From Clavelina lepadiformis (taxonomy: Eukaryota; Chordata; Ascidiacea; Aplousobranchia; Clavelinidae), in NCBI RefSeq assembly GCF_947623445.1, contig NC_135242.1, positions 19,406,001 to 19,470,000 on the forward strand: DNA of 64,000 nucleotides, written 5' to 3'. Shown one piece after another: positions 8,301 through 41,098 of the stretch. How positions within the stretch are numbered: the stretch's first letter is position 1; each line of letters begins with the position of its first letter. The position numbers and the translations under genes are program-made. The notes below the pieces were generated by a model, which had not been told where the DNA came from, ran no database searches, and was given only the letters and a program-made list of their open reading frames with translations.

Positions 8301-10500
8301 CGTGATTTGCCTGATTTCAAGCAATTTCTTAACCTTGGATTCCGAAGAAGTAGTAAGGCATAGCAGCTATTGTGTTAACTTACATATCTCATATAACTTT
8401 TTGGTAAATAATGCATTATTTATTCATTTGCATAATTTATTATGAAAGAATGTTTGACTGCACAATGTAAACTTTTCCGGTACATGTCATTTTCACTTGA
8501 TAAAACCAGGTATTCGATGCTGTTATGAGCTGGGTGCAACATGACGTCACTTCCCGGAAGTTCCTACTCCCACGTCTACTGGAACACGTTCGCCTGCCAC
8601 TGGTGAGGCCCCAGTTTCTGTTGGACGTTGTGCAAGCTGACCCACTTATAAAGAACAATAAGGTAAGTTAAGTTACACCTGACTTAAAAAAGTCGCCATT
8701 TATCATAGTTTTTCTTTTTATTGTTAGGAATGTGAAAAGTTTTTGAACGAGGCTCAACGATTTCAGCTGCTTCCGGACCAGCGACCGATGATGCAAACAA
8801 AAAGGACGCAGCCAAGGCAAGCATATGTGACTAAAGTAAGCAACTTTTAATACATACAACTAAATGTAATGCCTTTAAATTACACTTTTGAAGATAGACT
8901 ACTTAGTTTTCATGATAAATTTTTTCATATAAGTAGAGAATAATAACTAGCTATAACGTTCGTGGACCTACGTGTCATTCGCAATGGATGTTTACAGAAA
9001 ATGGAGGTTTTGGTAACGGTTGGTGGTCTCAACAAAGACAAACAGACGATTGCAAATTGCGTATACTTCGATCTAAATCAACCGCGTACGACGCATTTGG
9101 CTCCGTTGTCGGGTAATTACTGTGACAAAATTGATACCAAACCGAAGGCATTCCTCAAAAGATGACCCCGCCGGTAATTTCCGAGTTGTGCGCTGCGATA
9201 TTAACTTGAAATGTTTAAACAGTAAAACAAACCGCCTACAGCGTCGCTGCAGTCAAGAACAACATTTTTGTTACCGGAGGGGCTTGTGTAACGCCATGCA
9301 ATGAAGTTTGGATGTACATTCCTAGCCTTGACATTTGGCAAGAGGTATGTAATAGGCTACTGTCTTTTTAAGTTTTCAACTTGAGGTATAAGTTAAACTC
9401 GGAGAAGAATTTAACATGGACGCTTTATCGTGCTACAGGTCGCACCCATGATTGAACCCAGGTTTCTCCATACATCGGTAGCGTTCAACGGCTTTCTCTA
9501 TGTGTTGGGTGGCAGCGATGGTACCGGAAGGCTTCGCAGTGTTGAAAAGTACAATCCAGACACAAATTCCTGGCAAGATGTGGCGCCCATGTTAAAAGCA
9601 CTGAGCTCACCTTGTGCTGTTACTTGCGATGGAATGCTGTACGTAATTGGTAAGAATTTAAATATTCGCAGTGACTATCAACTCGTTTATGAAAGGACAT
9701 ATAAAACATTTTGTAGCAACAGGCAAAACAATTGTCAGTGTTTGGCTAAATACAACTTTATTCCATCATAGAATCGGCAGAGTGCTCACTTATATTTTAC
9801 AATCTCAAGGTGGCGCCGTAGGTTCGGAGCCAAACGAAATAGTTTGTGATGTACAAAGCTACGATCCAAAACATAACTCTTGGAAGTTTGTGACTTCACT
9901 TCCGCAGCCGGAAAGAGGAGCTGTAGCAGCCAATCTTAACGGGACGGTCTACCTAATGGGACAAAATAAAGCAGTTTACTCTTACAACAGGTGGACTTAA
10001 TCTTCTTACTTTTCGTTGGGCTTTGTTTATCTAATTCTAAACTGTACTTGTAACTGATTGCTGTTTTATGGCAGACAAAGCAATGAATGGGTCAAGCGGT
10101 GCAACACACTTGGAGGTCATTTATATGGCGCAGCCACTGTTCATTGCGGCCAGCTGTGTGTGGCAGGTCAGATACTGTAATGTGTTTCGTAAGTAAACTG
10201 TGAGTCGATAGAAGGTGATAATGATTTCTTTAGTCGAATAGGTTTCGTATAGGAAACGTTATTAACATATGCTCGTGTTGGAGATGTAATCAAATACAAC
10301 ATAGTTATTGAAATGTGTTTAATTTGCGTTTTGATTTCATGGAAGCAGGTGGTCTTCACGGAAACAGTTACATCAACGGCACAGTTGAAACTTACGATTA
10401 CGTGAACGACCGATGGTTTGTAACGAGCACTCTTCACGTTCCGGTCTACGCGCAAGGATTTGTCAGCATCGTAAAGGACGACGTCACTAGTCCAAGATGA
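5396..10500 (+). CDS. BTB-BACK-Kelch protein, KLHL24/KLHL6-like, 642 aa, 14 exons
   Basis: Exons: 5396-5463, 6073-6190, 6773-6940, 7634-7787, 7950-8086, 8203-8352, 8510-8662, 8728-8835, 8998-9112, 9223-9344, 9439-9649, 9810-9990, 10075-10166, 10349-10500. All have GT-AG borders and compatible phase, totalling 1929 nt with TGA. Residues about 1-80 are a disordered leader with a basic patch (PPRKRLRYD). A BTB domain follows at about 85-195 (FVDLVLVTDGKEIPCHKAVL), then BACK at about 200-315 (EEVVFDAVMSWVQHDV, HVRLPLVRPQFLLD). From about 352 come Kelch repeats with the double glycines and Y/W spacing (LYVLGGSDGTGRLRSVEKYN, LYVIGGG). The repeat SSPCAVTCDGMLYVIGGG aligns with the equivalent KLHL24 repeat. 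Family members bind CUL3 through BTB-BACK and present substrates through the propeller for ubiquitination. The start is the first ATG in exon 1. KLHL24 against KLHL6 or KLHL35 cannot be settled without a tree. Confidence 0.9.
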
Positions 10501-12697: not shown

Positions 12698-14013
12698 TTA
12701 TGTGAAATGACGCCAAAATGCTACTACCAAAACAAAGCATGCGAACAGTTTTACTAAAACCTTTTTATTTCTTTTTTTATTAGCTATTGCTATGGGGTTT
12801 TCATTAGCGATTTCCTCCGCGATAGTTGAATTCGTATTTTTATGAGGAAAAGGAACATTAGGAACTTCAACATTGAGGAACTTGCATAGTGGTTCCCATC
12901 CTTGACTAGCTTCGTACACAAGAAGTTTATCTTTTGGTGCCATCTGCAGCAGAATTAATGAAAAACTACAGCAATATGTAGCATTTTAAAATTGTAAAAA
13001 CTATTTGCTAAACTTTTCAGTCTATTTTGGTATACAACCGCCACAGTATACCTGCATCACATAGTTGTTGTGCTGACGATATTTTAACCTTGAAATCATT
13101 TCATTTGGAGGTCTCTTACTGGGATGTTGCAGGCCATACAACACCCTCACTGCAAGTATCAATACCACTTAAGCCCAATAATATTACTGTATATGTAGTA
13201 TGTACAGTTGTAGTAAACCTTATTAGTTAACAAAAATTTATTGGTAGGGCTGCAGCAGTTATTAATGATTTTGAAATGAATTTGATTTGTTAAATTAACT
13301 TTTACTGTATATCAACATGTCCAGATATATATATTCACCGAAGACAAAGCTTATGTTCAATTCACTTAGTGTGTTAGTTATTGCGAGTTTGGCATAAATG
13401 TCCTTTTTGATGTGATCACCTTTCAATACAATAAACACTACTAATCATGGTACTTTACACTAAAATGACAAAATACTGAGGGATAGGTATCATTAAATTA
13501 TCATACTTATGTTCTTTGCAAACTTGTGGAATGTCCACCAGCCAAGGAGAGGAATTGTGGGTGCAAACACAAGAAAATTTTTAAGTCCATTATTGGTGGT
13601 AATCTGTCTTGATTGACTTTTATACCACGCATCTTCATGGCGAATGGTCAATACTATCTGTGTGAAAAGAAAAGCTTGCATTTCATTTTCAAGTTAAAGT
13701 TAAACTAATCTAAATGTTTCTAATACACGAGTAATTAAACTTGTCAAAAATTTAAACCTACCTTTGCATCAGGAAATGCTTCATGAATTTGTTCCCAAAA
13801 ATAACAAGCTGGTGCATCTGTGACAGCATCAACGTCTTTGTACATTCTTCTGAAATCATCGACAGTTCCACCACTTTCTAATAATTTGTTCCAGTCATTA
13901 CCATGATATGAATAATGTTCGAAAAAGTCATACGTCTTATATCCAAGAATAGTCAATGCTGTACACATTGTTGTGGTTCCAGTCTTTGGAAAACCTGCCA
14001 CAATCACTTTCAT
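12698..14013 (-). CDS. ST1: sulfotransferase-like P-loop protein with C-terminal membrane anchor, 248 aa
   Basis: Exons in gene order: 14013-13762, 13657-13507, 13149-13052, 12943-12698 (252, 151, 98 and 246 nt). The phases are compatible and the frame ends at TAA. The P-loop VAGFPKTGTTTM (about residues 5-16) is the 5'-phosphosulfate-binding motif of sulfotransferases. DAVTDAPACYFWEQIHEAFP, an IVLTIRHEDAWYKS segment, LKYRQHNNYV and KDKLLVYEASQGWEPLCKFL follow, in the order seen in the Sulfotransfer_4-type family (cytosolic or membrane-associated PAPS-dependent enzymes of unknown substrate). The last 18 or so residues are a hydrophobic tail anchor after a lysine-rich stretch. The usual R-D-E-D is R-H-E-D here. 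Exon 1 and upstream DNA almost match ST2, while exons 2-4 are clearly diverged, suggesting recombination at the exon 1/intron 1 border. AATAAA on the coding strand lies at 12655-12650. Confidence 0.85.
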
Positions 14014-14115
14014 TATGTCTAAGTTGCCTAAAAATGTCTATAAATTGTTAAAAACAAAAAGGTTTAAGCCACAAAATACATAATAGTTTATATTCCATCT
14101 AACATGAGATGAATG

Positions 14116-14341
14116 CAGTGGGATCTCATTATTCCAAAGTTCATTAATCCAAAACTTTCACAATCAACCCCAGGCAAGGAACATATTTTTTTATTTACTC
14201 CACTTTTCCTTCAATTTATAAAAAAGCAGATTTCATTATATTCTGTTAACGCATTGTAACCCATTTCATTATTCGGGTAGCCTTACTTATCTGACACAAT
14301 GCTTTGGAAATAAAATGGTTCCGATCAACGACATTCCACTG
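14116..14341. mobile_element. pogo/Tc1-like MITE (copy in the ST1 upstream unit)
   Basis: The left end reads CAGTGGGATCTCATTATTCC and the right end, on the other strand, CAGTGGAATGTCGTTGATCG. These are imperfect terminal inverted repeats of the type found on pogo and other Tc1/mariner elements. TA follows the right end, but no clear TA precedes the left. The 226-bp interior has no coding capacity. The same element recurs at 16531-16743 in the next duplicated unit, so it was present before the unit duplicated. Confidence 0.55.
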
Positions 14342-15050
14342 TATATAACCACAAATGCTACAAACTTACATTCAAATAAAACAGTTCAAACATGACCAAG
14401 CTCTACAAACCATTTTATGTGACTGTCTTTAAATTTTTGTTTTCTCTCCGACTTCTGTGTTGATTGATTAATTATTTGCAAAATATATGAAATGCAGCTA
14501 AAGCACATGCTTGGGATATGGGTTGGCAGTGCCAAAAATATAATAATATTTGTAATACTACACCAAAAATTATTAATATCTGACATGTTAATGACGTTTC
14601 TACATGCAACTAAAAATGGCTTTTATGATGGTAAATTTAATGCTATTTAGCTTAAACCTAGTAAATAAAACTCCAAATCTGTCCACATCCATTGTTTATG
14701 AAAAAAATAAACTTTAAATAATGGTCTCAGATAGTATTTATATATACTGTACCTACTTATGGGCAATGCCAAAATACTTTATAGATATGGCTGAAAGAAA
14801 ATTATTTTTAAAATTGAACCCAGATGGCTTATGGATGTTATATTTAAAAAAGTCTGTCCAGGACATTACAGTGTAGTAAAAAGTTTTCAAACGAGAAGTA
14901 TTCAGCACAACAGGCTCAACAAATATTACCACATTCAAGTTACAACATTCAGTAATTTAGTATTACATTTGCAGTGATGAAGAACAACTATAAATATACA
15001 GTAACTGCTCCATGAGTAAAGTACGATGCTACGATAAGCATAAATACAAT
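14342..15050. other. Spacer between ST1 and ST2, part of the duplicated unit
   Basis: This is a near-copy of 16744-17454 with small indels and substitutions. It holds no exon. It includes upstream sequence of ST1 and 3' flanking sequence of ST2. Confidence 0.6.
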
Positions 15051-16428
15051 TTATGACAACTTGTAACAAAGTGCAACAATTAAAGCTAAGCCACCAAACA
15101 GTTTGATCAAAAGTCGGCTATTTCTTTTTCGATTAGCAATAGCTATTGGATTTTCTTTTGCTGCTTCTTTCCAAAACGTTGCATTCACATTCTTACAAGG
15201 AAACGACAAATTAGGAACTACGGCATTAAGGAACTTGCATAGTGGTTCCCATCCTTCACTTACCTTGTACACCAGAAGTTTATCTTTAGGTGCCATCTAA
15301 ATACAAATCAATACTTAATTTAACATAACATGACATGGGCATATGGTACTGGTATAACACCAATTAAAAACAACATCCATTGAAAAACGCACATCGACAA
15401 ATTCTGTAACTAAAGTTCCAGCAACGAGGAATCAAAGTTATTTTGTGCAAATGTTTTCCTCAGTCTGAGGATGAACCTTTTGATACCATATATTGTATAC
15501 CTGAATTACATAGTTGTTGTGCAAGCGATATTTTAATCTTGAAACCATTTCATTAGGAGGTTTTTTACTTGGAAACTCAATTCCACTCACCACCCTCACT
15601 GCATAAATGTAGACTAATACTGATAAGTTATTTGTGCTGATATATATAAGTTCGGGCAACTGTGAACAGAAAAATCGTGAATTGACAATTTAAAAAAAAA
15701 AACTTTTTTACTTATTATGAAGTTGCATATCTAGACAATTCCTTCCTATACATTTATAACATAATATTAAATTTAATAATAATAACAGTAATGCAATTAA
15801 GACATTAACGACTGTTAAACAAATAAAAAAGCAACCGTACTGGTATTCTTGTACCACTTGTAAAACTTCCACAAGTCAAATAATGGAATAGATGGAGCAA
15901 TTGTGAAAAAGTTCTGAAGCCCATTGCTGGTTACAAACTGTTTGGAAAAACTTTTATACCATGCATCTTCATCACGTATGGACAAAATAATCTGTGTAAA
16001 AACATGGTTTCAACAATATTTCTTAAAACAACAATATCATACATCAAACTTGTGAACAGTTTAAACTGTACACATATAAGCTTGACAAAACTTTCACTCT
16101 TCTAAAGTTTTTGGTGAAAATACCTACAAAATGTATAATAGCGCAGCAGATTGATAAGAATGATCAAAATATTTACCTTTGCATCAGGAAATGCTTCATG
16201 AATTTGTTCCCAAAAATAACAAGCTGGTACATCTGTGACAGCATCAACGTCTTGGTACATCCTTTTGAAATCATCAACAGATCCACCACTTTCTAATAAT
16301 TTGTTCCAGTCATCACCACGATATGAATAATGTTCGAAAAAGTCATACGTCTTATATCCAAGAATAGTCAATGCTGTACACATTGTTGTGGTTCCAGTCT
16401 TGGGAAAACCTGCCACAATCACTTTCAT
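15051..16428 (-). CDS. ST2: sulfotransferase-like P-loop protein with C-terminal membrane anchor, 248 aa
   Basis: Exons in gene order: 16428-16177, 15991-15841, 15598-15501, 15296-15051. The sizes (252, 151, 98, 246 nt) match ST1 and ST3 exactly. It has the intact P-loop GFPKTGTTTM, IILSIRDEDAWYKSFSKQF with the usual R-D-E-D, RLKYRLHNNYV, and KDKLLVYKVSEGWEPLCKFL. It ends in a hydrophobic tail (LLIKLFGGLALIVALCYKLS) that should anchor it in a membrane. It looks functional, with no stops or bad splice sites. It differs from ST3 at only a few residues in exons 1, 2 and 4, so the two arose by recent tandem duplication. The substrate is unknown. A short pyrimidine-AG sequence (TTTTTAG) sits about 20 bases before the ATG and could serve as a 5' UTR or spliced-leader acceptor. 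Confidence 0.87.
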
Positions 16429-16530
16429 TATGCCTAAGTTGCCTAAAAATGTCTATAAATTGTTAAAAACAAAAAGGTTTAAGCCACAAAATACATGATA
16501 GTTTATATTCCATCTAACATGAGATGAATG

Positions 16531-16743
16531 CAGTGGGATCTCATTAATCCAAAACTTTCACAATCAACCCCAGGCAAGGAACATATTTTCTTTTATTTAT
16601 TCCACCTTTCCTTCAATTTATAAAAAAGCAGATTTCATTATATTCTGTTAATGCATTGTAACCCGTTTCATTATTCGGGTAGCCTTACTTATCTGACACA
16701 ATGCTTTGGAAATAAAATGGTTCCGATCAACGACATTTCACTG
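16531..16743. mobile_element. pogo/Tc1-like MITE (copy in the ST2 upstream unit)
   Basis: Duplicate of the element at 14116-14341, with the same CAGTGGGATCTCATTAATCC left end and a right end reading CAGTGAAATGTCGTTGATCG on the other strand. It is slightly shorter through a small internal difference near the left end. It moved with the gene unit, not independently. Confidence 0.55.
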
Positions 16744-17454
16744 TATATAACCACAAATGTTACAAACTCACATTCAAATAAAACAGTTCGAACATGACCA
16801 AGCTCTACAAATCATTTTATGTGACTGTCTTTAAATTTTTGTTTTCTCTACGACTTCTGTGTTGATTGATTATTTGCAAAATGTATGAAATGCAGCTAAA
16901 GCACATGCTTAGGATATTGCTTGGCAGTGCCAAAAATATAATAATATTTGTAATACTATACCAAAATGTATTGATATCTGACATGTTAATGAAGTTTTTA
17001 CATGCAACTGAAAATGCTTTTATGATGGTAAACTTAATGCTATTCAGTTTAAACCTAGTAAATAAAACCCCAAATCAGTCCACATCCATTGATTATGAAA
17101 AAAATCAACTTTAAGTAATGGTCTTAGATAGCATTTATATATACCGTACCTACTTATGGGCAATGCCAAAATACTTTACAGATATGGCTGAAAGATTCTA
17201 GAAAATCATTTTAAAAATTGAACCCAGATGGCTTATGGACGTTATAGTTAAAAATGTTTGTCCAGAACATTACAGTGTAGTAAAAAGTTTTCAAACAAGA
17301 AGTTTTCAACAAAACAGGCTCAACAAATATTACCACATTCAAGTTACAGCATTCAGTATTTTAGTATTACATTTGCAGTGATGAAGAACAACTATAAAAA
17401 TACTGTAACTGCTCCATGAGTAAAGTACGATGCTACGATAAGCATAAATACAAT

Positions 17455-18859
17455 TTATGACAACTTGTAACAAAGTGCAACAATTAAAGCTAAGCCACCA
17501 AACAGTTTGATCAAAAGTCGGCTATTTCTTTTTCGATTAGCAATAGCTATTGGATTTTCTTTTGCTGTTTCTTCCCAAAACGTTGCATTCACATTCTTAC
17601 GAGGAAACGGCACATTAGGAACTACGGCATTAAGGAACTTGCATAGTGGTTCCCATCCTTCACTTACCTTGTACACCAGAAGTTTATCTTTAGGTGCCAT
17701 CTAAACACAAATCAATACTTAATTTAACATAACATGACATGGGCATATGGTACTGGTTAAACACCAATTAAAAACAAGGTCCATAGGTCCATTGAAAAAT
17801 GCACATCGAAAAATTTTGTAACTAAAGTTCCAGCAACGAGGAATCATTGCCAAATTTATTTTGTGCAAATGCTTTCTTCAGTCTGAGGATGAACGTTCTG
17901 ATACCATACATTACATACCTGAATTACATAGTTGTTGTGCATGCGATATTTTAATCTTGAAACCATTTCATTAGGAGGTTTTTTACTTGGAAACTCAATT
18001 CCACTCACCACTCTCACTGCATAAATGTAAACTAATACTGATAAGTTATTTGCAAAATAAGTTATTTGCGCTGATATATTTAAGTTCGGGCAACTGTTAA
18101 CAGAAAAATAGTGAATTGACAATTTTTTGAAAACTTTTTTACTTATCATGAAGTTGCACATCTAGACAATTCTTTCCTATACATTTATAACATAATATTA
18201 AATTTAATAATAATAACAGTAATGCAATTAAAACATTAACGACTGTTAAACGTATAAGAAAGCAACCGTACTGGTATTCTTGTACCACTTGTATAACTTC
18301 CACCAGTCAAATAATGGAATAGATGGAGCGATTGTGAAAAAGTTTTGAAGCCCGTTGTTGGTTACAAACTGTTTGGAAAAACTTTTATACCATGCATCTT
18401 CATCACGTATAGACAAAATAATCTGTGTAAAAACATGGTTTCAACAATATTTCTTAAAACAACAATGTCATACATCAAACTTGTGAACACTTTAAACTGC
18501 ACACATATAAGCTTGACAAAACTTTTACTTTTCTAAAGTTTTTGGTGACAATACCTACAAAATGTATAATAGCACAGCAGATTGATAAGAATGATCAAAA
18601 TATTTACCTTTGCATCAGGAAATGCTTCATGAATTTGTTCCCAAAAATAACAAGCTGGTACATCTGTGACAGCATCAACGTCTTGGTACATTCTTCTGAA
18701 ATCATCGACAGATCCACCACTTTCTAATAACTTGTTCCAGTCATCACCATGATATGAATAATGTTCGAAAAAGTCATAGGTCTTATATCCAAGAATGGTC
18801 AATGCTGTACACATTGTTGTGGTTCCAGTCTTGGCATCACCAGCTACTATCACTTTCAT
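17455..18859 (-). CDS. ST3: sulfotransferase-like P-loop protein with altered phosphosulfate loop, 248 aa
   Basis: Exons in gene order: 18859-18608, 18422-18272, 18016-17919, 17700-17455, with sizes identical to ST1 and ST2. The body is almost the same as ST2 (IILSIRDEDAWYKSFSKQF, KDKLLVYKVSEGWEPLCKFL, same hydrophobic tail). The P-loop reads VAGDAKTGTTTM instead of VAGFPKTGTTTM, so the conserved F-P before the catalytic lysine is D-A. The lysine and the T-G-T-T that contact the phosphosulfate are kept. Similarity to the ST1 and ST2 upstream DNA fades within about 60 bases of the ATG, so the outer edge of the duplicated unit lies near this start codon. All splice sites look good. Activity is uncertain because of the loop change. 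Confidence 0.85.
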
Positions 18860-18919
18860 TATGTAAAGTTGCCAAAAATGTCTTTAAATTGTTATTATAA
18901 AAACGTTTCAAATACCTGT

Positions 18920-20116
18920 AAAAAAATTAGTATTTTCACTTTTAGTAAAATTAGTGTCTTTTACCTCAAAGAGCATTTGAAATGGTTAAATAAATACAAA
19001 GTTTAGCTCCATGTACCATAAAATGAATAAACATCTATCATCTGAAACTGGATTAAATCTAGTGGTAAGCTACCTGTTGGTGCATAGTTTTAGTCTGCAA
19101 CATGCATTTTATTGGAAATACTGGGTTTTGGTAAAGGCATTGAAGGAAGGCATATCATTTACAGCTTGGTATATTCAATGCTACATGCAAGTTAAGATTT
19201 AAGTATCAACAATACAGATTACAATCTTTCACAATCATCTTGTTACCTCATAAAATTCCTGAAACTTGTTTTGAAAATAATTTAGAATAGATAAAATATT
19301 GTATTAAAAATCCATAATCAAACAAACATGTCTCTTATGTTCATCCATTCTCTCCGATAAAATCAAGAATAGATGCAGAACAAAATGCAGAAAAAGGCAT
19401 AACACTTTATTCTACAAATGCAGCATGGTAAACACATTGTGCTTGCATAGCAGTAAGTGGCTGATACTATAAAATTTTGTACCATTTATATGTAAGGTTT
19501 TTTATTATTATAATCAATTGTTCTAATCATTTTGAAATCAAAAAACCACGAGACAAAAATGCTAAACACAACAGCATTCTAACACAAAATGGTAACGCAT
19601 TTAAAAATCAAATGTTGATGATAATTATCATCAGTATATTTTCACAGACGTATAAGTACATTTATTAATAGCACCCAACCGATTAGAATAAAGAGAAATG
19701 GAAACAACTTCATTGTTTGAGGTTTGGCAATGACACTCTCATAAAATAACCTAACGGAAGGGATAATTGTTACATCATTATAACAACATCATGGGATAAT
19801 CACAACAACATCATGCAAAATATAACATAATATTAATAATACTGTAGTAGTCATAACTACATAATTACACAGTTAATAGCAATACATTAAAATGTATAAA
19901 AAATATTTCTTGCTTTATATTTTGAGACCATCTACTGTTTCAAAGCAGGGTACGAAACATAAAAAAATGCTCATTTGGGAAAATTAGAAATCTGTTTTAT
20001 GGCCAAGTATGGCGATGGCCGTCTTTGACTAGTAGGCATTTAAGGCTTTCAAAAAAAGCGCAGCTTCTATTTGAGTAAATACGGTTGATAGTTTATATTA
20101 AGCAAACAGCATAAGA
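18920..20116. other. Spacer between ST3 and ST4, no gene seen
   Basis: 1.2 kb of A/T-rich sequence with no sulfotransferase remnant and no clear repeat end. It holds the ST3 upstream region and ST4 3' flank. Confidence 0.5.
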
Positions 20117-22655
20117 CTAATAAAAATTAAGCAACGGCCATATAACTGCTACGAAAACTGGTAACGCAATGATACAAAACACAAAAGCATACACCACATA
20201 AAGCTTCTTCTGTGCTTGTTTCATAACGACATTTTGAGTTCTTAACTCTGGCAACAAGTTTCCATTTGGATTCTTATGTGGAAATGGTTCATCAGGTACA
20301 TCTTTTTCAAGAAATTTACACAATGGTTCCCAGCCATCAGTTATTTTAAATACTAGCAGTTTCTCACACGGTGCTGCCTTTTAAACAAACAAAATAACAA
20401 TCGTGTATGGTGTGATATCTTACAACAATTATCTTGAGAACAAAAGCCTAGTACTAACAAACTTAATTGCCAATTTGAACCTTATAAAGCTCTACAAAAA
20501 CACAAAACCTCAAGTAAAGCTCACAATTGACATCAAATCAAACTCGCGGCCTTTAAAGACTTTGGGTGCGCCCAGCTAAGTATGTTGACTACGATCATAC
20601 TAACAGAATGCTCTAATGCAGTGGTTCTCAAACTGTGGTACGCGTACCACTAGCGGTACGCGAGAGCATTTTAAGTGGTACCGCGTACCGCTGAACATGA
20701 TTTTCGATGTGCTGTGAGTAATGTGTTGCCCCGGATAGACAAGCTTGTGCAGAAGAAACAGTTGCATCTATCAAATTAAATTGTGTTTTCTTGCTATTCA
20801 TTGGTGTTATGGTACATTGGTGTTATGGTACTTTTTTGTTTTTAATACAACTTTAACACTCCTGTGTTTTTGAAACTTTTTAATGAACCATGTTTTTTTA
20901 AAGTTTGTATAACCATAGGCAGTATATTTGTAATTTATTCAATTAGTGTGTCTGTCATGATTTAAAAGGTTTTTTAACGATGAAGTCCTTATACATTAAA
21001 TTTTCATGAACATACGACAGTTTATAACGCCTTTTGCTTAACCACAGGGAAGGGGGTGATAAGGGTGAAAAACCCATTCTCAAGCTATTTATTTTAGCCT
21101 AGTTTTTCAAGGCAAGCAACAAAACATATATAACAAGTTTATGTCAAATAAAACAGTTTTACTGCAGAAAAGCATTTCTCATTCAACCTGTGTATTCAAT
21201 TGTGTCTTAACTACTGAAGAAGCGCGTAAAGTGAAGAAATCCATAAATCCAACTATGACCATCAAACAAAAAGCAGCTAAAAAGCATTGTTATATTAGGT
21301 TCACATTCAAATTACAGAATTTAATTTTCATGTCACAGTAGCCAATTTGTCTTGATAAACAATGGGTTAACAGCAAAAGCACAACTGTAATGTATATGTC
21401 TAAACTTGACATTAAACAAGCTTGGATGATGCCCAACGATTGCAGTTGTCTTATAAAAGCTTTTGGATATTACTGCTTGCTAATGGCTCTGTCATTTTCA
21501 GTGCCGCAAAGTGGAAAAGAAGCCACAAGCTCATTGCAACAAACAACATAACCAAGCTATGGACAACGCATGAGAAACTTAGTAAGCAGAGCCTATTTAA
21601 AATAACTAGGCTAAGCTCATGTTTTGTTTGTTCGCGCAGTTGCACCTCAGTCAAAATTTCTAATGCCGCCCTACATTTAGTTTGACTTTGACACCCCTGA
21701 TAGTAAAGCAATTCAAGAAAATTATAGAAAAGTTTCCATGCAATACTTTAAGTTACTAACTTGTAAAACATGATCATTATGCTGACGAAATTTCATGAGA
21801 GGAACCATTTTATTTGTGGTACAAATATTTCCAGAAAAATATGACATAGGTAACCCAAAGGAAGCCATACCTGCAAAGTATGTAACATAGCATATTACTG
21901 GCACATAACAAGATTTAAGAAAGATTACCTGCATTAATATTTCCAAAACAGAATCAGGAATATCAGAAAATGTCTAATACTAATAAAGTATTAAAATCTT
22001 GTCACCTAGATATTGCCTATTAATCATTGCTAATTTCTTCTAAAAATGACAACTCACATATAGCTTTGTAATATCGATATGTGCTGAAATATGGAACATA
22101 GTGAGAAATTTTAAATGAAACATCAGCATTCATTCTTTCAAACTGCTTCTGTAAGCTTCGCCACCAGGACTCCTCATCTCGAAGAGTTAGCACAATCTGG
22201 CAATATATGTTTTTTTACTTGTAGACAAATGCAGTGGGAAGTACTTTAACCGTAATAAACAAAGTGCCTAAACATTCATCCAAGCCACACAATTAATCAT
22301 CCTTCACTAGCAACGAATAACATCACCACAAATTCGGTGTTTTAGCAACAAAAAAGCCATACCAATAAAATGATGTATGTATATCTATGTATTGTATGAC
22401 TACCTTTGCATCGGGAAAGGCTTCAGAAATTTCTTCCCAAAAGTTGCATGCTGGGGCGTCTGTAACAGCATCAACATCTTTATACATCCTTTTAAAGTCT
22501 TCCACTGTCCCACCAGTTGTCAGTATTTTTATCCAGTCATTGCCGTGATACCAGAAATGTTCAACAGCATCATAGACTTTATATCCCAGTACGTTTAATG
22601 CAGCACACAATGTCTTGGTACCAGTTTTTGAAAAACTTGCAACAATTACCTTCAT
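20117..22655 (-). CDS. ST4: sulfotransferase-like P-loop protein with C-terminal membrane anchor, 253 aa
   Basis: Exons in gene order: 22655-22404, 22196-22058, 21870-21761, 20377-20117 (252, 139, 110 and 261 nt), all phase-compatible and ending TAA. The P-loop is VASFSKTGTKTL, diverged from PKTGTTT but keeping the lysine and G-T. The middle segment is IVLTLRDEESWWRSLQKQF, then MKFRQHNDHVLQ, GWEPLCKFLEKDVPDEPFPH, and a 25-residue hydrophobic tail. Exon 2 is 12 nt shorter and exon 3 is 12 nt longer than in ST1-ST3, a split shared with ST5 and ST6, so these three form a second subfamily. Intron 3 is long (1.38 kb) and carries hAT-like ends. I start at ATG 22655 because MKVIVA aligns with the other copies. 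No defects were seen. Confidence 0.83.
20619..20700. mobile_element. hAT-type transposon end in ST4 intron 3
   Basis: CAGTGGTTCTCAAACTGTGG at 20619 is a typical hAT terminal sequence, followed by nested GGTACGCG/CGCGTACC inverted motifs up to about 20690. I could not find a matching right end with an 8-bp target duplication, so the element may be truncated or degraded. Confidence 0.5.
21430..21705. mobile_element. hAT-type remnant in ST4 intron 3
   Basis: The stretch ends in TTTGACTTTGACACCCCTGA, the reverse of the CAGGGGTGTCAAA ends of Charlie-like hAT elements. Inside, GTGCCGCAAAGTGGAAAAG resembles non-autonomous hAT sequence. The left boundary is approximate and no target duplication was identified. 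Confidence 0.4.
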
Positions 22656-22739
22656 TGTAAACAAGTTTTCTTATTTTGTCTGCAGTAAAATATATGCACA
22701 CAGTGTTAAAAATTACATGTTTTAATACAAAGGAGGCCA

Positions 22740-23749
22740 GATTATCACATATACAGTAACACAATAATTATGCGTATGTGGGCAAGTCATACACATAATT
22801 CCAAGCATCTGCTCACACTTAACATCAAATAGTTAATTAGAAAACACCAACAACACGACGTGTAAAACCTAATGGACAAAAATACGTTACAAGAATCACA
22901 AGAGACCTGCTACAAATATTTAAAAAGAGAGTTATTAACAGTTTATGAAAGCTTATTCTCGCGCACAATAACAGGTATCATTAAAACAAGACATAACATC
23001 TCAAAAAGAGCTACCAATCCTACAACAATCATTGGCTAAAGCGTCATTACCACATACAAGCAACACGTAAACGTTCACTCAACATAGAATTTAAATCTAC
23101 AAAACTTGGGCATTCTAAATAACAAAACATAAACGATTTTCACCATTCTGTCCCAATGCTTGCACAGAGGTGGTCTGAGATCAAAAAGTAGCGGCGATGG
23201 TGGCTAATTAGTTGAGTTATGAAATGGCTAACACAAAAGCAGAAAAATACAGTGCCTAGCAAAACATTGGTATCAAAATTGCTGAGGTTCTTCAAGAAGA
23301 AATAATGGTACTGAGTTCGATATATTATATAGGTTGTTCAAGTTAAACAATAAATTCTAACCTTCTACCAAAAAATGAGACGAAATCCTTTTTCACAAAA
23401 TAAAAAAATACCAATAAAACAATAATACACATGTAAATTTTGTCAACAACATGGAGTGGAAGCTCATTAACTTGAAGGGACTAATTAGATTAGTTCGAGC
23501 TATACAAAGCTTTGGGTTACAGTAAGTTGATAAAATTGGTCACCAATAACTATTGTATTTACTTGCCCAACTGCTTGTAAAGTTTTATCGTACTTAGTGA
23601 AATTATTTGAATTGTTTAAACTACACTTGTTTTTTCAGCTGCGTGTATCTGATTAACCTATATAACTTTCCAAACACAGTCTTGGCAGCCTCGATTTGGG
23701 TTTTTAAATGTTATACACAAAATACACGTGAAAATTGACTGAAAAAAGG
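22740..23749. other. Spacer between ST4 and ST5, no gene seen
   Basis: 1 kb without exons. The portion near 23455-23530 (GGAGTGGAAGCTCATTAAC, then GTTCGAGCTATAC) faintly resembles a pogo-like end, but no partner end was found. Confidence 0.4.
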
Positions 23750-26700
23750 TTAGAAAGCATAGTAAAGTGCAAATAAAACCGGTATGGCAAAAACAAGGAA
23801 AACTCCAATTTTATAATACAGCCATAAATTGCGAGCAACTTCACTGTCACGTTTTAATTCGGTCAAATACTTTGCTTTCACATTTTTGTGTGGAAAAGGT
23901 TCATCTGGTATGTTCTTCTCCAAAAAGCTGCAAAGACGTTGCCAACCCTCTGTTACGTTGTAGACTAGCAGTCTATCCTTAGGTGCATTCTGAGTATCAT
24001 TAAAAATAATGAACATCTTTTCCTAACATAACTTATTTTTCATAAAGGCCAACGGCATCGTGCTGTGCTGGCAAGAAAGAGCGTTAAAGGTACGCTTATA
24101 AACCTTTACATTTTACATGCCTAATGGTATACATACCTGATATTTTACATGTTTGCTAGAATATATAGATCAGTTATTTTAACCTTCAACAAACATGCTT
24201 GAAAAACCCAAACCTGCAAAACATAGCTGTTGTGTTGTCGAAATTTCATACGTGCCACCATTTCGTTGGTAGAACAAACTTGTCCTAAGAAATAAGAAAC
24301 ATCTAATCCAAATCCAACCCTACCTGCATAAAAACAAACAGAGATTTACTTTACACATGACATAAACACTTTACACATTTTGCTACTTAAGCTGGGGTAA
24401 CTCTTTATGCATCCTTTGCTCAAGACCATTTCTTTTTTTGTAAGCTTGCATATAAAAGGTATAAAAGCTGCTGTAATCATCACATATTAGACCTATGCTA
24501 CATTGGGCAACTTACAAAAATCTTTTAAAAAACGATGCGAATACATGAAGGGTACAAAGTTAAATATTTTTGATGGAACATCTCTGTTGAGCTCTTCTAG
24601 TTGAAACTTATAGCTCTTCCACCAAGAATCTTCATCCCTCAATGTGAGAATAACCTTCACAAATTTCGATAATAAATATTAATCTAGAAACATTATTTGC
24701 AAGAGCAACACCTAAACTACAGTTGCCCATCATGAAAACATCTTTTAACACTAGAAGGACGGGGCGCGTCAATTGACGCATTTTCAACCTAAGTGCATCT
24801 ATAACTTTTAAGTGGTGCATCGCAAAACTGTGATATTTCCTGACTTTTCCTACATTAGTGTTAGGTAACTAACCCATGAATATGAAGTTTTTATTTTACC
24901 GGTAGAGATAATTAACGTGGTCACTACCTAGAAGGACGGGGTGCGTCAATTGACGCATTGTTACTTCACAGTACAAAAACCAGTCTCGCGATTGAGAGCA
25001 TTGTTTTCTTTCTGCTGATAATTACAGGTTTATCGAATTAGGTCACAGCTGCCAACACAGAGGTGTGACAAACGTGTCGACAAACTATGCAAGTCGACTT
25101 TTCCGCAAAACAGAGTAGTTTCGTCACAAGCGCAGCCTAATTTCGGAATTTTTGAAGTTTATCGAAGCGTAAGTGTAGTAAGAGTTTCTTAGTTAGATAA
25201 ATTAGATGAATTAGATAAATTCGTCGGCTTGGTGGTTGCTCGTGGCGTGATAGGAGGGCGCAACTTCCCTTTGAAGAGTTTGTGGGGGCGGTCGTGGGGA
25301 TGTCCGATGTTTTCCCAAACCATGGCAAGAGACAGGTTTTTGGAGCTCATACGATTCCTTCGCTTCGATCTGAAGACGGAAAGGCGTAGGAATCTATTGC
25401 ATGATAAATTTGCACTCGCTTCACAACTTTGGAACAGTTTTATATCAAACTGCCAAAAAGCATTCATTCCACAGTGGAAGATAACTGTGGATGAGCAACT
25501 ATTGCCGTGTAAGGCACGCTGCAAGTTCATCCAATATATGGCCAATAAACCAGACAAGTTTGGTCTAAAGTTCTGGCTGGCAGTTGACGTTGAAAACAAA
25601 TATTTATTCAACGGTTTTCCTTACGTTGGAAAAGATGACGCAAGGAGCCCCCACGTGAGTGTGCCCACCGACGTTGTACTGAAACTCATGGCTCCGCTTT
25701 TTCAAGGAGGTTACAACGTCACTTGCGATAATTTTTTCACCTCACTTGACCTGGCGTTGCGACTTGCTGAAAAGAAGTACAGCCTCGTAGGGACAATGCG
25801 CCAGAACAGGAGAGAAGTCCCAGAAGAGTGCAAGAAGAAAAAGGAGTTGCGTGAAACAGAAGTGTTTAGGCACGAGTGCTTGTATTTTCAATGCGATTGC
25901 TTTTGTTAATTAAAATGCACAAAGTGGACATGCAATAGAAGTAGTTTTTTCGGAGCAACAGCACAGTTTTCTCAACAAAAAACGTTAGATTTGCGCCGTT
26001 TTGACCTTTTGCGTCAATTGACGCACTCCGTCCTTCTAGGTATACGAAAATTGCCGTCCTTCTAGTGTTAAGCACACCGAAATGTCTCCTGGGATTACTA
26101 TGAAGCTACTTTGGCCTGATAGTAAAAAGAAGGTAAGCTAAATGTTTCTTTCCCCTTTAAAATGAAACTCCCTGCTTCAAGAAGCGAACACTTTGCTTTT
26201 TACGCAGAAGCAACATATGTTAATATATTCATTTTGCAAAGGTAGCAGCACAATCATAATAAAGTAATCTGCAACATTGCATGAGACCTGACGTTGCACA
26301 GCTTGAAAGCCGTGTTGTAAAGACTCGAGTCCTTAACTTGGCCTGCCTTAGTCAATTTTAGCCACATTGTAGTAAATGCAGTTGCAAAAAATCTAAACTA
26401 TTGATCATAGAATGGAATATTTTCGAAAAAATACACTTTTCCAAAACAAAATTTGAACCACTCCAAATTCGATATAGCCATAAAGAAGAACTTGAGGCAG
26501 TGCATAGCGTGACATTGGAAAACTTTACAAGCTTAACGGTATTGGCTTGACTTTAGTCAAGTTTAGGTTCATTGCTGTGCTGGCAATAGATACAACTTGA
26601 TTTGGGTCCAAAAATATGAATTATTTCAAAGTTCTGTTTAAATGTATTTTATTGATTAAATAAAAAAAAATTGTGTACCAAGTTAATGCTTGAGGCCACA

Positions 26701-27115
26701 CCAGTAAATTTGAAAGTGTTGATATATTTAAGTGCTCAAAATTTTTAAAGTCTTATTTATCACAAACATAAAAAACTTTCATGGAGTATTACAATAAGAG
26801 CTTTACAATATAATTCATAAATATGATTATAATTATCCTTCTCCAAAATAAAACAAGATTCACCTTTGCATCTGGAAAAGTTTCAAGGATTTGTTCCCAA
26901 AACAAACATGCAGGTTGATCAGTGACTGCATCCACATCCTCATACATTTCCCTGAACATGTTGATTGTTCCTCCTGTTTCCATAATTTTCATCCATTCTT
27001 TTGTGTGGAACCAGTAATGTTCAAAGTTATCATACACCTTGTAGTCCAAGATTTTTAAAGCAGCACACATAGTCTTTGTGCCGGTCTTCGATAATCCAGC
27101 AACTATTACTTTCAT
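23750..27115 (-). CDS. ST5: sulfotransferase-like P-loop protein, 246 aa, intron 1 interrupted by piggyBac
   Basis: Exons in gene order: 27115-26864, 24654-24516, 24323-24214, 23989-23750 (252, 139, 110 and 240 nt). The joined frame is open and ends at TAA. The P-loop is VAGLSKTGTKTM. VILTLRDEDSWWKSYKFQLE, MKFRQHNSYVLQ and KDRLLVYNVTEGWQRLCSFL follow, then a hydrophobic tail of about 20 residues. It belongs with ST4 and ST6. Intron 1 is 2.2 kb, against 100-200 bases in ST1-ST4, and the excess is mostly a piggyBac element at 24749-26067. Splice sites at both ends of the enlarged intron are intact (AAG|GTGAAT and GTGAAG|GTTATT), so the gene may still be expressed. I link the exons by phase, spacing and the array's one-gene repeat; a transcript would confirm it. 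Confidence 0.8.
24745..26071. mobile_element. piggyBac-family DNA transposon, non-autonomous
   Basis: The element (24749-26067, 1319 bp) is flanked by TTAA on both sides (24745-24748 and 26068-26071), the hallmark piggyBac target duplication. The ends are perfect 14-bp inverted repeats, CACTAGAAGGACGG. Next to the left end, and again at 24928-24957 and 26010-26039, sits a CTAGAAGGACGG-type motif joined to the perfect palindrome GCGTCAATTGACGC, making a multi-part subterminal repeat array likely bound by transposase. It carries a shortened transposase gene (separate entry), so any movement would need enzyme from another copy. Confidence 0.93.
25229..25909 (+). pseudogene. piggyBac transposase, truncated (226-codon frame)
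   Basis: The frame contains the core of the DDE_Tnp_1_7 (piggyBac) domain: MARDRFLELIRFLRFD, WKITVDEQLLPCKARC with the first catalytic Asp, GLKFWLAVDVENKYLF, and NVTCDNFFTSLDLALRL with the second catalytic Asp. A full transposase is about 550-600 aa. Here the N-terminal region before VGLVVARG is absent and no ATG is in frame until the methionine at about 25307. The protein stops soon after YSLVGTMRQNRREVP, before the third catalytic Asp and the C-terminal cysteine-rich domain. It cannot be catalytically active on its own. The loss is consistent with internal deletion and decay of a once complete element. Confidence 0.85.
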
Positions 27116-27830
27116 TTTATCCCCTTTCTATTAGACTGTTAAACAGAATGCAGGATGTGAGAACATAATGATAACACAATTAATTTGACAAAAACTAGGA
27201 AGGATTCAGTATGAAATGCTTGCTAGAAAAATGCCACAGCCTAATATTAGAGTACAAATTTCAGTGGAATTTAATTCTTTAAGTAGGAAGCAGAAGTACT
27301 AAAACTTAAATCATTACACAGTAGAAACACTAATCGTGTTATAGATGTAAGTTTAACCAATATAAAATAAATTTGAAAATGGTAATTTTGCCATAAAAAG
27401 TACCCTACATGCAAGCAAATTCATACATGAAACAAAAGATTACATTAACAAACTCTACTCAAAGAAACAATAAATTAATTATCTACCAGGTTAAAGAAAG
27501 TATCAGATAGACAATTTTGGAGAATGTGATTACTGGTATGCTGTCAAACAATACACAATAAAAGAATGCACTTTTGCCTAGTTATAAAACTGCAGTAACC
27601 ACCAAATGAATACAGTTGGGTATTAAATGAGCTAACATGAGCCAATAAAAATGCAACTGAATTTGTTGTCACAACACACAGTTTCGTAACATTAGATGAC
27701 TTTACAAGCATTAGTGAAGTTAACTTACACTTTACTACAAAAACAAAATTAGGCAAAAAAACCAAATAGGGTGTTAGATAGTGGTGTGAAAGAGTAGCAA
27801 GAAAAACAAGGCAGATACAATCACCACAAT
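27116..27830. other. Spacer between ST5 and ST6, no gene seen
   Basis: 0.7 kb with only chance frames. It holds the ST5 upstream region and the ST6 3' flank. Confidence 0.5.
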
Positions 27831-29178
27831 TTAAAAAATATAATTTAAACTGACTGCAATGCAAATAAATCCAATTGCAAGATATAACCTGATGATGAAC
27901 CAGATAGTTCGGACTGTTTTGTTTTCAATTTTTATATCTTCGATAAGCTCACCACCAACATATTTGAGTGGAAATTGCTCATTGGGTATCTCTACACCCA
28001 AGAATTTACAAAGTGGTTCCCAGCCATCTGATACTTGGTAAAGTAGCAACTTATCTTTTGGAACAGCCTAGAGTTTTATTTATGGGAGTTGTTGAATAAA
28101 CTATAAAAGCAATACCGTAATGCATACCTGGTTATGATTGAATGTGAAGTTTGTTTAAAGGGGAAATTTAAAGCTTTTTATATCTACATGTAAAATCTTA
28201 TTATGGTATCTGCCTACTTGCAACACATAGCTGTTGTGATGACAAAACTTCATTCTAATTACCATTTCATTGGAAGCGCACACGTTCCTCATGTAATAAG
28301 ACACGTTTACACCCAAAATAAAAAGACCTGTCATAAACAGGAAATACTGCAGAAAGTAATCAGTAATAAAGAGGAATGGCTTACTATGTGATTATATTTA
28401 GAACAAAAGCCAAATAAAAAGAAACCTTGACAAATAAAGAATCAATTGATAACCAAGGAATGCATTTTGCGAGTGTAGAATAAGTCATACAGTGATACAA
28501 TACAGTAATAATTGCCTCAATTATGAACTATGAACTACTTATTACATTTTGGAATTTTTAACAAACAATTGTCAAACCTTTTAATGCATATTACTTTCAC
28601 TAACAGTATTTGGATAACAGTAAACTTACATTTATTAAATAGGTGCCAATATATTCCCAAAAATGGAATGAAATTGCAAATTTTTACTGTAATATCTGCA
28701 TTTAAGATATCAAGGTGATGCTTGAAACTCTTCCACCAATAGTCTTCATCACGAGTCGTAAAAATTATCTATACATAAATATAATCCTAATTTAAATTCT
28801 ACCTCGAGCATAGTAAGTGCAGTGCTGTGGCATTAACAACAATCTTTAAAACAAAAACAACCTAGCTAACAAATTGCGCACAACTCTTTAAAGGCAAAAA
28901 CAAACATAACCCATAATATATTTTAAAACAAGTACCAATATTATACAGCAAGGTCATTGAAGACAACAGAGTACATGTAACAAATCAACTCTGCAGGCAT
29001 GTCGTGGTACAAAGCCAGAATTACTATGTGCACCTGATCTACCACCATTCATTCCAATGTCGTTGACTGTTTCATCCAAAACATTTTTGGGAAGCTATAT
29101 GCTTTACATATTTGCATATGATTATTAGTCCTGGAATGTAGGTATACCATGACTGTGTTTTAAACTTTGGTTTACAGA

Positions 29179-29357
29179 CAGTGGCGGGATTCAGCCGGTT
29201 CGCACCAGTTCGTGAAAACTGGTTCTTGGAATTTTAATGACCTCCGCAAACCGGTTGTCAACAAGTGTACGTATAGACCTATGTTATATCGCCTACGTAA
29301 ATATGGCATGCCGCTAGTGACAGAACCGGATGTTAAAATATTTGAATCCCACCACTG
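29179..29357. mobile_element. hAT-type MITE in ST6 intron 1
   Basis: The left end is CAGTGGCGGGATTCAGCCGG and the right end, on the other strand, CAGTGGTGGGATTCAAATAT, as in short hAT derivatives. The 179-bp interior is non-coding. The flanks TTTACAGA and TTTAGACA (the latter read across the second insertion) match at 6 of 8 positions, fitting an old 8-bp target duplication. Confidence 0.65.
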
Positions 29358-29364
29358 TTTAGAC

Positions 29365-29815
29365 CAGCGGTTCCCAAACTGGGGTCCGTAAAGCAGTTTC
29401 AGAGGGTCCTCAATGTACAGCAATGATTGTGATTCAATTATAAAGCTTTCTCGGGAGTTATGCTTGCTTTATATTAGTCTTTAGTTAGCGAATGTTTTCA
29501 ACATTATAGCTGTACTATTACTATTTCCCCTCTACTCAATATGAAAAAAATACCGAAACCGACTGGATGTAGTACACGACATGAGAGTTGCGCTATCCAA
29601 AACCAAACCGAACATTGATGAGTTAATTGCAGCAAAAGAAGTGCACCCATTCCATTAAACGCTTATCGTATTTGATAGTTTTTGCTTTTTCTTTCATTGG
29701 TGTGGTTCTTGCATTTTTCCTATAGCATACTTTGATTTTTATAGGGCTACGAAATATCAAAATAATTGCAAAGGGTCCACCAGGAAAAATTTCTAGAAAA
29801 GTTTGGGAACCGCTA
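29365..29815. mobile_element. hAT-type MITE inserted at the edge of the previous MITE
   Basis: Inverted ends CAGCGGTTCCCAAACT (left) and TAGCGGTTCCCAAACT (right, other strand) bound a 451-bp non-coding element. The 8-bp target duplication GTTTAGAC is perfect (29357-29364 and 29816-29823), and its first G is the last base of the 29179-29357 element. This insertion is therefore the younger of the two. Confidence 0.8.
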
Positions 29816-30440
29816 GTTTAGACAGTCATTTGAAATTTGTGCAGTTCTGTGCAGTTGTTGGTAGAAATGAAACCAAGCTGTCCACTTTTTACCCAAATTT
29901 CTGTTCCCTTACTAGCCCACAATTACAAGAGATGAAGCATTTGCTCTAATGCCCAGCATACAACAGATTGATTGAGTTTAAAAAATGAGTGTTTGTGGTG
30001 TGCTTTTTCCTGAACATAAGAAGAAATTTACAAATTTCTACAATAATATAAATATAGCTGTAAATGATATCAGAATAAGTGGCTGCAAAATTAGCAGTAC
30101 AGAGAATAGTTTGCAGTTAGCCTCGAGTATGCACATGCATATTGCACAAACATGCTGAACACACTGCTAACATTGCAGTTCACAACACCTTCGCATCAGG
30201 AAATGTCTCATGTGTTTGTTCCCAAAAATAAAACGCCGCCATATCAGTAACAGCATCAATATCTTTGTACATTTTCTTGAAGTCACCAGTCGTTGCACCA
30301 ATAGTTAAAATTTTATTCCACTATTTTGCATTATACCAATAATGCTCAAATCCATTATACACCTTGTAGCCCAACATGGTTAAAACAGCAGCTATTGTTT
30401 TTGTGCCAGTTTTGCAATATCCAGCCACAATTACTTTCAT

Positions 30441-40600: not shown

Positions 40601-41098
40601 ACGATCGCGTCCGCTGTTGACGTCATTCCAAGATCCAAGAAGAACGGCCGGTCGACTCCGAGCAGTTCAGTATCCTCTACTAAATCAAGTAGTCATGATG
40701 GTGAGAAAGTTGGTTCAGGAGCAAGAAGTTTTGGAAAAGAGACAAGCGTTTTAGGAGACAGTTTTCTGTGCCCCTCCTTGCCCGAAAAGATGCCCCTACT
40801 GAAAACGGTGACGTGTATCCCGACGAAGTACTTCCTGAATACATCCAGTTGTTCCTCCGTGTCTTCGATTGACTCTTCCGAGCATGTCTCAAGCTTAACG
40901 TCATCTTCTAGGTCACCGGAACGTCACTCAAGCGTGTCTTCAATACCGAGTTCCACACCGAGGATTATTAATGAACGGCATCCAAAGGTTATAAGATCGG
41001 GAAGACTCTCTGTCACAAATAATCCAAGAAATTTACCGGATAACTTTGAGTCATTCCATTCGACCTCTTCGCCAAAGGAAGGCGAATATTATGTGTAA
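37687..41098 (+). CDS. FAM124 family protein, 537 aa, four coding exons
   Basis: Exons 37687-37718, 38938-38999, 39202-39392 and 39770-41098 join in phase (TTTCG|G, ACA|GT, codon boundary) to 1614 nt including TAA. The family domain begins RRVTLHVITDPGQSEKINSS and includes FDVICVSERF. It continues PAIAVVLFFNDGF, RQKPWRFHHKVAVSGK, AAFPLWGVRKVHYGKQILRF, DDFCYFLTYSNTRSVIQIGL, ILQFKIKNVGQLVPLLPYAC and DPISELRWRTRDHDSNLILL. These match the order and key residues of vertebrate FAM124A/B (PLWAIRPVHYGKEIVRFTV, GELVPLLPNPC). The fold is related to glyoxalase-type domains, and its molecular role is poorly known. After about residue 350 the tail is long, serine-rich and disordered (SSVSSIDSSEHVSSLTSSSR). 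The start is the only in-phase ATG upstream. The first intron is 1.2 kb. AATAAA at 41240-41245 fits the 3' end. Confidence 0.9.

Follow-up and report, generated by a model that had tools for sequence, protein, structure and literature searches.

The window, a 64,000-nucleotide stretch of Clavelina lepadiformis DNA, contains six sulfotransferase loci in tandem on the minus strand (12698-30440), five of which are intact and one of which (ST6) is broken. The five intact genes, ST1-ST5, probably encode tail-anchored, cytosol-facing PAPS sulfotransferases that have diversified for small amphipathic acceptors and that resemble SmSULT (PDB 4mua), the Schistosoma mansoni sulfotransferase that activates oxamniquine, a foreign drug (PMC4618941).

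Gene models and Pfam searches revealed a common four-exon design with phases 0/1/0 at all six loci (Table 1). The exons measured 252, 139 or 151, 98 or 110, and 237-261 nt, and all introns were of the GT-AG type; these splice models are based on homology and splice sites only. The array limits are exact, as position 12698 is the end of the ST1 stop codon and 30440 is the first base of the ST6 ATG. A sequence-only reading of this DNA had described six genes of identical design in one orientation. The design and orientation held for six loci, but exon 1 of ST6 has an in-frame stop codon (TAG) at codon 40 (30323-30321). The transposase fragment located within ST5 is of the piggyBac type, judging from its Pfam family, and is not part of the sulfotransferase system.

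Table 1. Sulfotransferase loci and the transposase fragment in the array (KD19, 19-residue Kyte-Doolittle mean)
Feature	Position	Strand	Product	Exons or location	Pfam match	Tail KD19
ST1	12698..14013	-	248 aa	14013-13762, 13657-13507, 13149-13052, 12943-12698	PF17784, 212.6 bits	1.96
ST2	15051..16428	-	248 aa	16428-16177, 15991-15841, 15598-15501, 15296-15051	200.2 bits	2.04
ST3	17455..18859	-	248 aa	18859-18608, 18422-18272, 18016-17919, 17700-17455	200.8 bits	2.04
ST4	20117..22655	-	253 aa	22655-22404, 22196-22058, 21870-21761, 20377-20117	197.4 bits	2.94
ST5	23750..27115	-	246 aa	27115-26864, 24654-24516, 24323-24214, 23989-23750	197.7 bits	2.37
ST6	27831..30440	-	pseudogene as assembled	30440-30189, 28768-28630, 28327-28218, 28067-27831
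Transposase fragment	25193..25906	+		inside ST5 intron 1 (2.2 kb)	DDE_Tnp_1_7, 162.7 bits

The profile search proposed in the sequence-only reading placed all five intact proteins in Pfam Sulfotransfer_4 (PF17784; InterPro IPR040632, "S. mansonii-type"), with scores of 197-213 bits versus a cut-off of 22.8 (E 8e-63 to 3.5e-58). The matches ran from profile position 1 to 212-215 and thus covered the full domain. The only other Pfam family detected in ST1-ST5 at E <= 0.001 was Sulfotransfer_3, below its own cut-off; at this level none matched Sulfotransfer_1 (PF00685), which sets them apart from cytosolic SULTs. The latter share the PAPS chemistry and the P-loop fold and usually employ a catalytic His, whereas the proteins described here belong to another Pfam family and have an Asp in this role. 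Elsewhere in the same genome, Sulfotransfer_1 gave 85 exon-level matches. ST5 could be aligned over most of the domain with solved relatives, including SmSULT (E 3.7e-17), and its best solved match was 9kf1 (E 1.3e-24). Both 9kf1 and a second solved relative, 8y9p (SgdX2), appear to be bacterial, as judged from their names and a Streptomyces match.

Conservation was examined in 52 aligned family rows (51 genes). K10, T11, T13 and W95 were present in every row, and R90 and S98, which form the R..S motif for the 3'-phosphate, in 50 and 51 rows, respectively; the family members thus possess both the P-loop, which serves the 5'-phosphosulfate, and the R..S motif characteristic of Sulfotransfer_4. 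The catalytic Asp (D66, equivalent to Asp91 of SmSULT) was found at all six array loci and in 48/52 rows. The mean majority fraction was 0.73 for exon 1 and 0.75 for the catalytic part of exon 4, but only 0.49 and 0.48 for exons 2 and 3. Residues of the PAPS site are near-invariant, and the acceptor-side exons are variable. A PAPS-synthase kinase domain was detected in the genome as four exon matches at a single place on chromosome 1. These features would fit PAPS-dependent sulfate transfer by ST1-ST5.

It is directly supported that the proteins belong to this family, keep its PAPS-binding and catalytic residues, share one gene structure, end in a hydrophobic tail, arose by the duplications described below and are under purifying selection; the following mechanism would be compatible with these properties. 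Exon 1 carries the P-loop and Asp66 and, jointly with Arg90 and Ser98 at the beginning of exon 2, would bind cytosolic PAPS. Once Asp66 has activated the acceptor hydroxyl, in-line transfer would place the sulfate on a small alcohol or phenol of lipid-like character that the enzyme reaches from the membrane. The acceptor side would be covered by exons 2 and 3, which are poorly conserved. As these two exons differ between copies, tandem duplication and the formation of chimeras such as ST2 may provide varied specificity on one scaffold.

Tail hydrophobicity was assessed in 48 family rows using the classical membrane threshold of 1.6 for KD19. All five intact array proteins ended in a hydrophobic segment (KD19 1.96-2.94) followed by 0-7 residues, in agreement with the C-terminal membrane anchor predicted in the sequence-only reading; as in tail-anchored proteins, the segment is single and lies about 30 residues or less from the C-terminus. 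None of the 48 rows reached 1.6 within the first 200 residues. The anchors of ST1-3, on the other hand, are short and contain a lysine, which weighs against membrane anchoring. Compared with shuffles of their own composition, four of the five array tails (ST2 being at 7%), but only 17/48 rows overall, stood out at the 5% level. Other genome copies that we read also have a hydrophobic tail of varying strength. Of all 48 tails, 28 had KD19 of at least 1.6 and 20 were below it, and in some copies the segment is followed by 14-34 mostly basic residues. Such moderate and extended tails, together with solved structures of SmSULT and bacterial relatives and the lack of a C-terminal membrane segment in eight of nine bacterial relatives measured, could mean that the tail is a hydrophobic or amphipathic helix packed on the domain or peripheral at the membrane, and that the enzymes are essentially cytosolic, like SULTs. 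We regard this as unlikely, since the array tails are well above the threshold with few residues beyond, and tail hydrophobicity is kept despite poor sequence conservation (majority fraction 0.45). A different possibility is that the enzymes sulfate glycans or proteins within the Golgi lumen, which would make a matrix component the target, and tunicates do produce sulfated glycans. However, the first exon opens directly with the strand of the P-loop (array sequence MKVIVA) and leaves no room for a signal peptide or anchor ahead of it; judged from this start position, an N-terminal signal sequence is absent. The C-terminal position of the anchor and the Pfam matches noted above also speak against the Golgi model, which is highly improbable. 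The predicted topology is thus tail-anchored, the catalytic domain being cytosolic and N-terminal to the membrane tail, and the short uncharged stretch after the anchor suggests ER-type targeting of the array proteins. With the catalytic domain predicted on the cytosolic side rather than inside the Golgi, a matrix component is a less likely target.

SULTs are usually regarded as soluble and Golgi sulfotransferases as luminal, and the predicted combination of a cytosolic catalytic domain and a membrane tail departs from both. SmSULT has the same Pfam family, P-loop, R..S motif and catalytic Asp as the array proteins; it differs in that the C. lepadiformis family comprises more than 100 loci and has the hydrophobic tail, and we know of no membrane segment in the solved schistosome chains. 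A search with a bacterial query yielded 11 relatives among 70 pattern matches. In eight of the nine complete ones, where the tail was measured (L033-L041; two incomplete relatives were set aside), the same domain occurred without a C-terminal membrane segment, whereas one, from Anaerolineales (L037), had it. The tail is therefore not unique to the tunicate copies. With patterns derived from the tunicate alignment, 0/63 and 0/69 matches were confirmed in the prokaryote and viral collections, but these patterns are too specific to tunicate copies for the result to be evidence of absence. Two of five tunicate-only orthogroups present in all tunicates compared (ENOG502CNPV and ENOG502CXMB) are possibly of the same family; the text on them names no Pfam domain.

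The sequence-only reading had proposed a local amplification of six genes. The array is real, but this view understated the family, which occurs genome-wide with 115 full-length first exons, nine of them interrupted by stops, and another 18 matches that are partial; the full-length count includes one at C6:5645581 that covers query positions 2-84 and has four stops. Ninety-five of the first exons are organized in 19 clusters. Open frames of 400-770 aa had suggested intronless or fused retrogenes, and this idea was rejected because 51 of 54 modeled copies proved to have four exons in spliced alignment and the exon-1 search gave ordinary frames. In the phylogenetic tree, the array forms one clade (100/96) composed of two subclades, ST1-3 (100/99) and ST4-6 (100/94). 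Thus, the two subfamilies recognized from sequence are separate clades, and the tree and pair comparisons agree with the proposed old duplication followed by recent local duplication. ST2 is a chimera, with an upstream region of the ST1 type and a body of the ST3 type. dN/dS was about 0.26 for ST2-ST3 and 0.26 for ST1-ST2, but exon 4 of ST2-ST3, taken by itself, had 5 nonsynonymous versus 0 synonymous differences.

Tandem families may also vary in copy number through mutation alone, with most copies functionally idle, and the broken ST6, the first exons with stops and the partial matches would fit this explanation. Similar family pairs listed with dS < 0.9, however, had dN/dS of 0.14-0.39, indicative of purifying selection, except for C9_891250/C9_894007 (0.68, with a frameshift in one partner) and a pair of identical rows representing the same gene; mutational noise is thus a quite improbable account. 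General detoxification, in which broad phase-II sulfation acts on dietary or microbial compounds and chemical exposure sets the copy number, is a possible, though less favored, explanation. The variable acceptor exons and tandem turnover resemble other detoxification families, and SmSULT itself activates a foreign drug (PMC4618941). On the other hand, nothing in these data sets detoxification apart from biosynthesis of the animal's own metabolites. For the diversified, membrane-tethered sulfotransferases that we favor, this drug-activating relative and tunicate chemistry suggest, by analogy, a small-molecule acceptor. The enzymes may take part in making sulfated secondary metabolites or signalling compounds, and for the product a sulfated metabolite or a compound used in defence is a reasonable guess.

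Tunicates have sulfated steroid sperm attractants. Alkyl sulfates are also made by marine tunicates (PMC6780655). In a limited literature search, mostly by title, we found no paper naming the enzymes behind tunicate alkyl sulfates or sulfated steroid attractants, none on Sulfotransfer_4/PF17784 that concerned tunicates by title, and none on tail-anchored sulfotransferases with a C-terminal transmembrane segment; searches within PMC9323829 yielded no information about a catalytic residue or the native substrate. A large, actively duplicating family with conserved cofactor exons and variable acceptor exons offers defined candidates for tunicate sulfation enzymes.

Genes near the array were considered as members of a shared sulfation pathway. 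This idea was rejected, as none of the 10 window ORFs scanned was linked to sulfation: they included kelch, FAM124, cullin, a transposase, one sub-threshold PTB match and four without a match. Besides these 10, the window has 12 other listed ORFs with a length of 110 aa or more, and four of them are array exons.

A broader and rather doubtful proposal is that the more than 100 genes form a membrane-tethered battery in which the PAPS exons stay constant and the acceptor exons can be exchanged. Its tails would fall into two classes, one short, uncharged and ER-like, the other long and basic, as expected for mitochondria or peroxisomes. Such a battery might serve combinatorial sulfation, yielding pheromones, alkyl sulfates for defence or other products from lipid-like metabolites, and a four-gene branch lacking the Asp would have been retained for a function that is non-catalytic or relies on altered chemistry. 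This branch is a cluster on chromosome 2 (C2:4.61-4.63 Mb) in which all four genes have lost D66. Its dN/dS values are 0.22-0.33, and it may be a test case for the change from transferase to pseudoenzyme.

The sequence-only reading described a six-gene tandem array with one orientation and a four-exon design. The array is real: in all six loci, three GT-AG introns, in phases 0, 1 and 0, separate the four exons. However, one member is broken, as exon 1 of ST6 carries an in-frame stop at codon 40, and ST6 is a pseudogene as assembled. The intact genes ST1 to ST5 encode proteins of 248, 248, 248, 253 and 246 amino acids. Exon lengths of 252/151/98/246 are common to ST1-3, and the first three exon lengths (252/139/110) are common to ST4-6. 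In a profile search, all five intact proteins matched Pfam Sulfotransfer_4 (PF17784) end to end (E 8e-63 to 3.5e-58), which excludes a chance match and bears out the proposed identity; this enzyme family is already known. The new aspect appears to be the predicted membrane-tail topology together with the scale of the expansion. No account of a membrane-tailed, expanded sulfotransferase family was found in the searches made of open-licence papers, judged mostly at listing level.

Features of the sulfotransferase array, its neighbors and related loci elsewhere in the genome
Feature	Position	Strand	Details
Six-locus array	window 12698-30440	-	head to tail; splice models from sequence
piggyBac-type transposase fragment	window 25193-25906	+	inside ST5 intron 1; DDE_Tnp_1_7, 162.7 bits
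Kelch repeat	window 9415-9768	+	
FAM124-domain ORF	window 39743-41095	+	187 bits
Cullin exons	window 52752-53635	-	
Aspartate-less cluster (L001-L003)	C2:4608534-4628323 (4.61-4.63 Mb)		four full-length tandem genes; catalytic Asp lost at 66 (G, A, G, A)
Largest cluster	C2:24.31-24.37 Mb		regular repeats at C2:24337361-24361870
Broken spare exon 1 (L032)	C6:510516-511317		upstream of intact gene, 550 bp apart

A profile search of the genome (209.06 Mb in 95 contigs, with the window at C3:19406001-19470000) detected at least 193 Sulfotransfer_4 stretches, a lower bound because 150 of the 317 candidates were scored. With the first exon as query, all 141 candidates were scored and 133 matches were found at E <= 0.001. 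These comprised 115 full-length matches (at least 83 of 84 residues covered), nine with an internal stop, and 18 partial ones; C1 had a partial match only. When first exons separated by gaps of up to 20 kb were taken as a cluster, 19 clusters held 95 of the 115 full-length first exons and the remaining 20 were solitary. The array ranked sixth, the larger clusters having 15, 12, 10, 9 and 8. Thus, the expansion noted from the array is real but was much understated, with 115 full-length first exons in the genome and only six loci in the array. In the largest cluster, first exons of identical score repeat every 8084-8087 bp, which may reflect either a tandem amplification of very recent date or a fault of the assembly. 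Sulfotransfer_1 had 85 exon-level matches (145 candidates) in the same genome, a figure that cannot be set directly against the others as a number of genes.

Statements on the family as a whole apply to the sample that was read, which holds no more than 60 of the 115 full-length copies. A tblastn sample of selected genome loci and the window gave 59 first-exon places (six in the window), from which five fragments were dropped to leave 54 usable gene models. Three introns in the same places, with phases 0/1/0, were present in 51 models; the others were one divergent, one broken and one cut by the locus end. Five of the 54 had a stop or frameshift. The design also fits all six additional copies picked for closeness to the array or for spread, one of which is without its 3' end. 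C6_510516 and C6_511066 yield one identical model, and hence a single gene entered twice, because the former is only a damaged additional exon 1 lying 550 bp upstream of the intact gene. The alignment had 52 rows, or 51 genes (cut copy and worst broken copy left out), and the tail sample 48 intact rows, or 47 genes (cut copy left out).

In a tree of 58 rows, ST1-6 form a single clade (100/96) containing ST1-3 (100/99) and ST4-6 (100/94), the two subfamilies originally proposed; an earlier 52-row tree gave 100/98, 100/100 and 98/85, respectively. ST6 sits on a long branch, and its placement was flagged as unsure. Judged by exon 1 only, the array stands out less: C5:14982216 outscores ST5 and ST6 with ST2 as query, and C5:18222324 outscores ST2 and ST6 with ST5 as query. 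Both were included in the 58-row tree, where they lie outside the array clade. Local duplication and purifying selection are both shown by the sequences. ST2 and ST3 differ by a dS of 0.091 and a dN of 0.024 (ratio 0.26), and dN/dS is also 0.26 for ST1-ST2, at dS 0.61. ST1 and ST2 are identical at 96% of 581 aligned upstream bases, and ST2 and ST3 at only 64% upstream, whereas in exons 2-4 identity is 95-98% for ST2-ST3 versus 66-79% for ST1-ST2. ST2 is therefore a chimera, ST1-like upstream and ST3-like in exons 2-4, with its junction in or near exon 1. The first exons of ST1, ST2 and ST3 are mutually 94-96% alike and look homogenised.

ST5 aligns with SmSULT, the oxamniquine-activating sulfotransferase of Schistosoma mansoni (PDB 4mua), and with other solved chains. 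Counting along the printed ST5-4mua alignment places Asp66 opposite SmSULT Asp91. According to extracts of the crystallographic study, the accepting hydroxyl of oxamniquine is positioned for a hydrogen bond to Asp91, and Asp144, which in our reading of the alignment lies opposite the exon-2 part, contacts its amine (PMC4618941). The cofactor site is conserved. Over the 52 rows, K10, T11, T13 and W95 are invariant, and S98, R90 and D66 are kept in 51, 50 and 48 rows. The mean majority fraction is 0.73 in exon 1 and 0.75 in the catalytic part of exon 4, versus 0.49 and 0.48 in exons 2 and 3. All four D66 exceptions are genes of the aspartate-less cluster on C2, two of which also have K at 90. 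It is possible that this cluster is a pseudoenzyme branch; its dN/dS is 0.22-0.33 in the five listed of its six pairs, and the frame of C2_4628323, judged by eye, is apparently shifted in the tail.

A Kyte-Doolittle mean of 1.6 was reached by a 19-residue segment of the tail in 28 of 48 rows (1.2 in 46) and within the first 200 residues in none (median 0.88). All five array tails reached 1.96-2.94, followed by 0-7 residues. Only 17 of 48 tails, including four of five in the array, exceed shuffled versions of the same composition at the 5% level. A true anchor is therefore fairly to strongly supported for the array and less well supported elsewhere. By eye, the tails form two classes: short ones, in which 0-10 residues with a net charge between -1 and +2 come after the segment, and longer ones, with 14-34 such residues and a net charge between 0 and +5. 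Mammalian tail anchors that are hydrophobic and carry little tail charge are directed to the ER, and charged tails lead to mitochondria or peroxisomes, as outlined in PMC5450235; transferring this rule to tunicate tails would be a guess by analogy. Unlike the array proteins, eight of nine bacterial relatives measured are without a C-terminal membrane segment. The tail is nevertheless not peculiar to tunicates, because the ninth, from an Anaerolineales MAG (L037), ends in one (Kyte-Doolittle mean 2.58).

We infer that the acceptors are small amphipathic hydroxyl compounds, sulfated at the cytosolic membrane face. The sperm attractant of Ciona is a sulfated steroid. Aliphatic sulfates are present in ascidians, e.g., 2,6-dimethylheptyl sulfate in the tunicate Polycitor adriaticus (PMC6780655); the portions of the sources consulted link neither these nor the attractant to this sulfotransferase family. 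The family may occur across the tunicates and not in Clavelina alone, because, according to an excerpt of a comparative study, two of the five orthogroups found in all compared tunicates, and only there, contain unknown sulfotransferase-domain proteins (PMC8704543).
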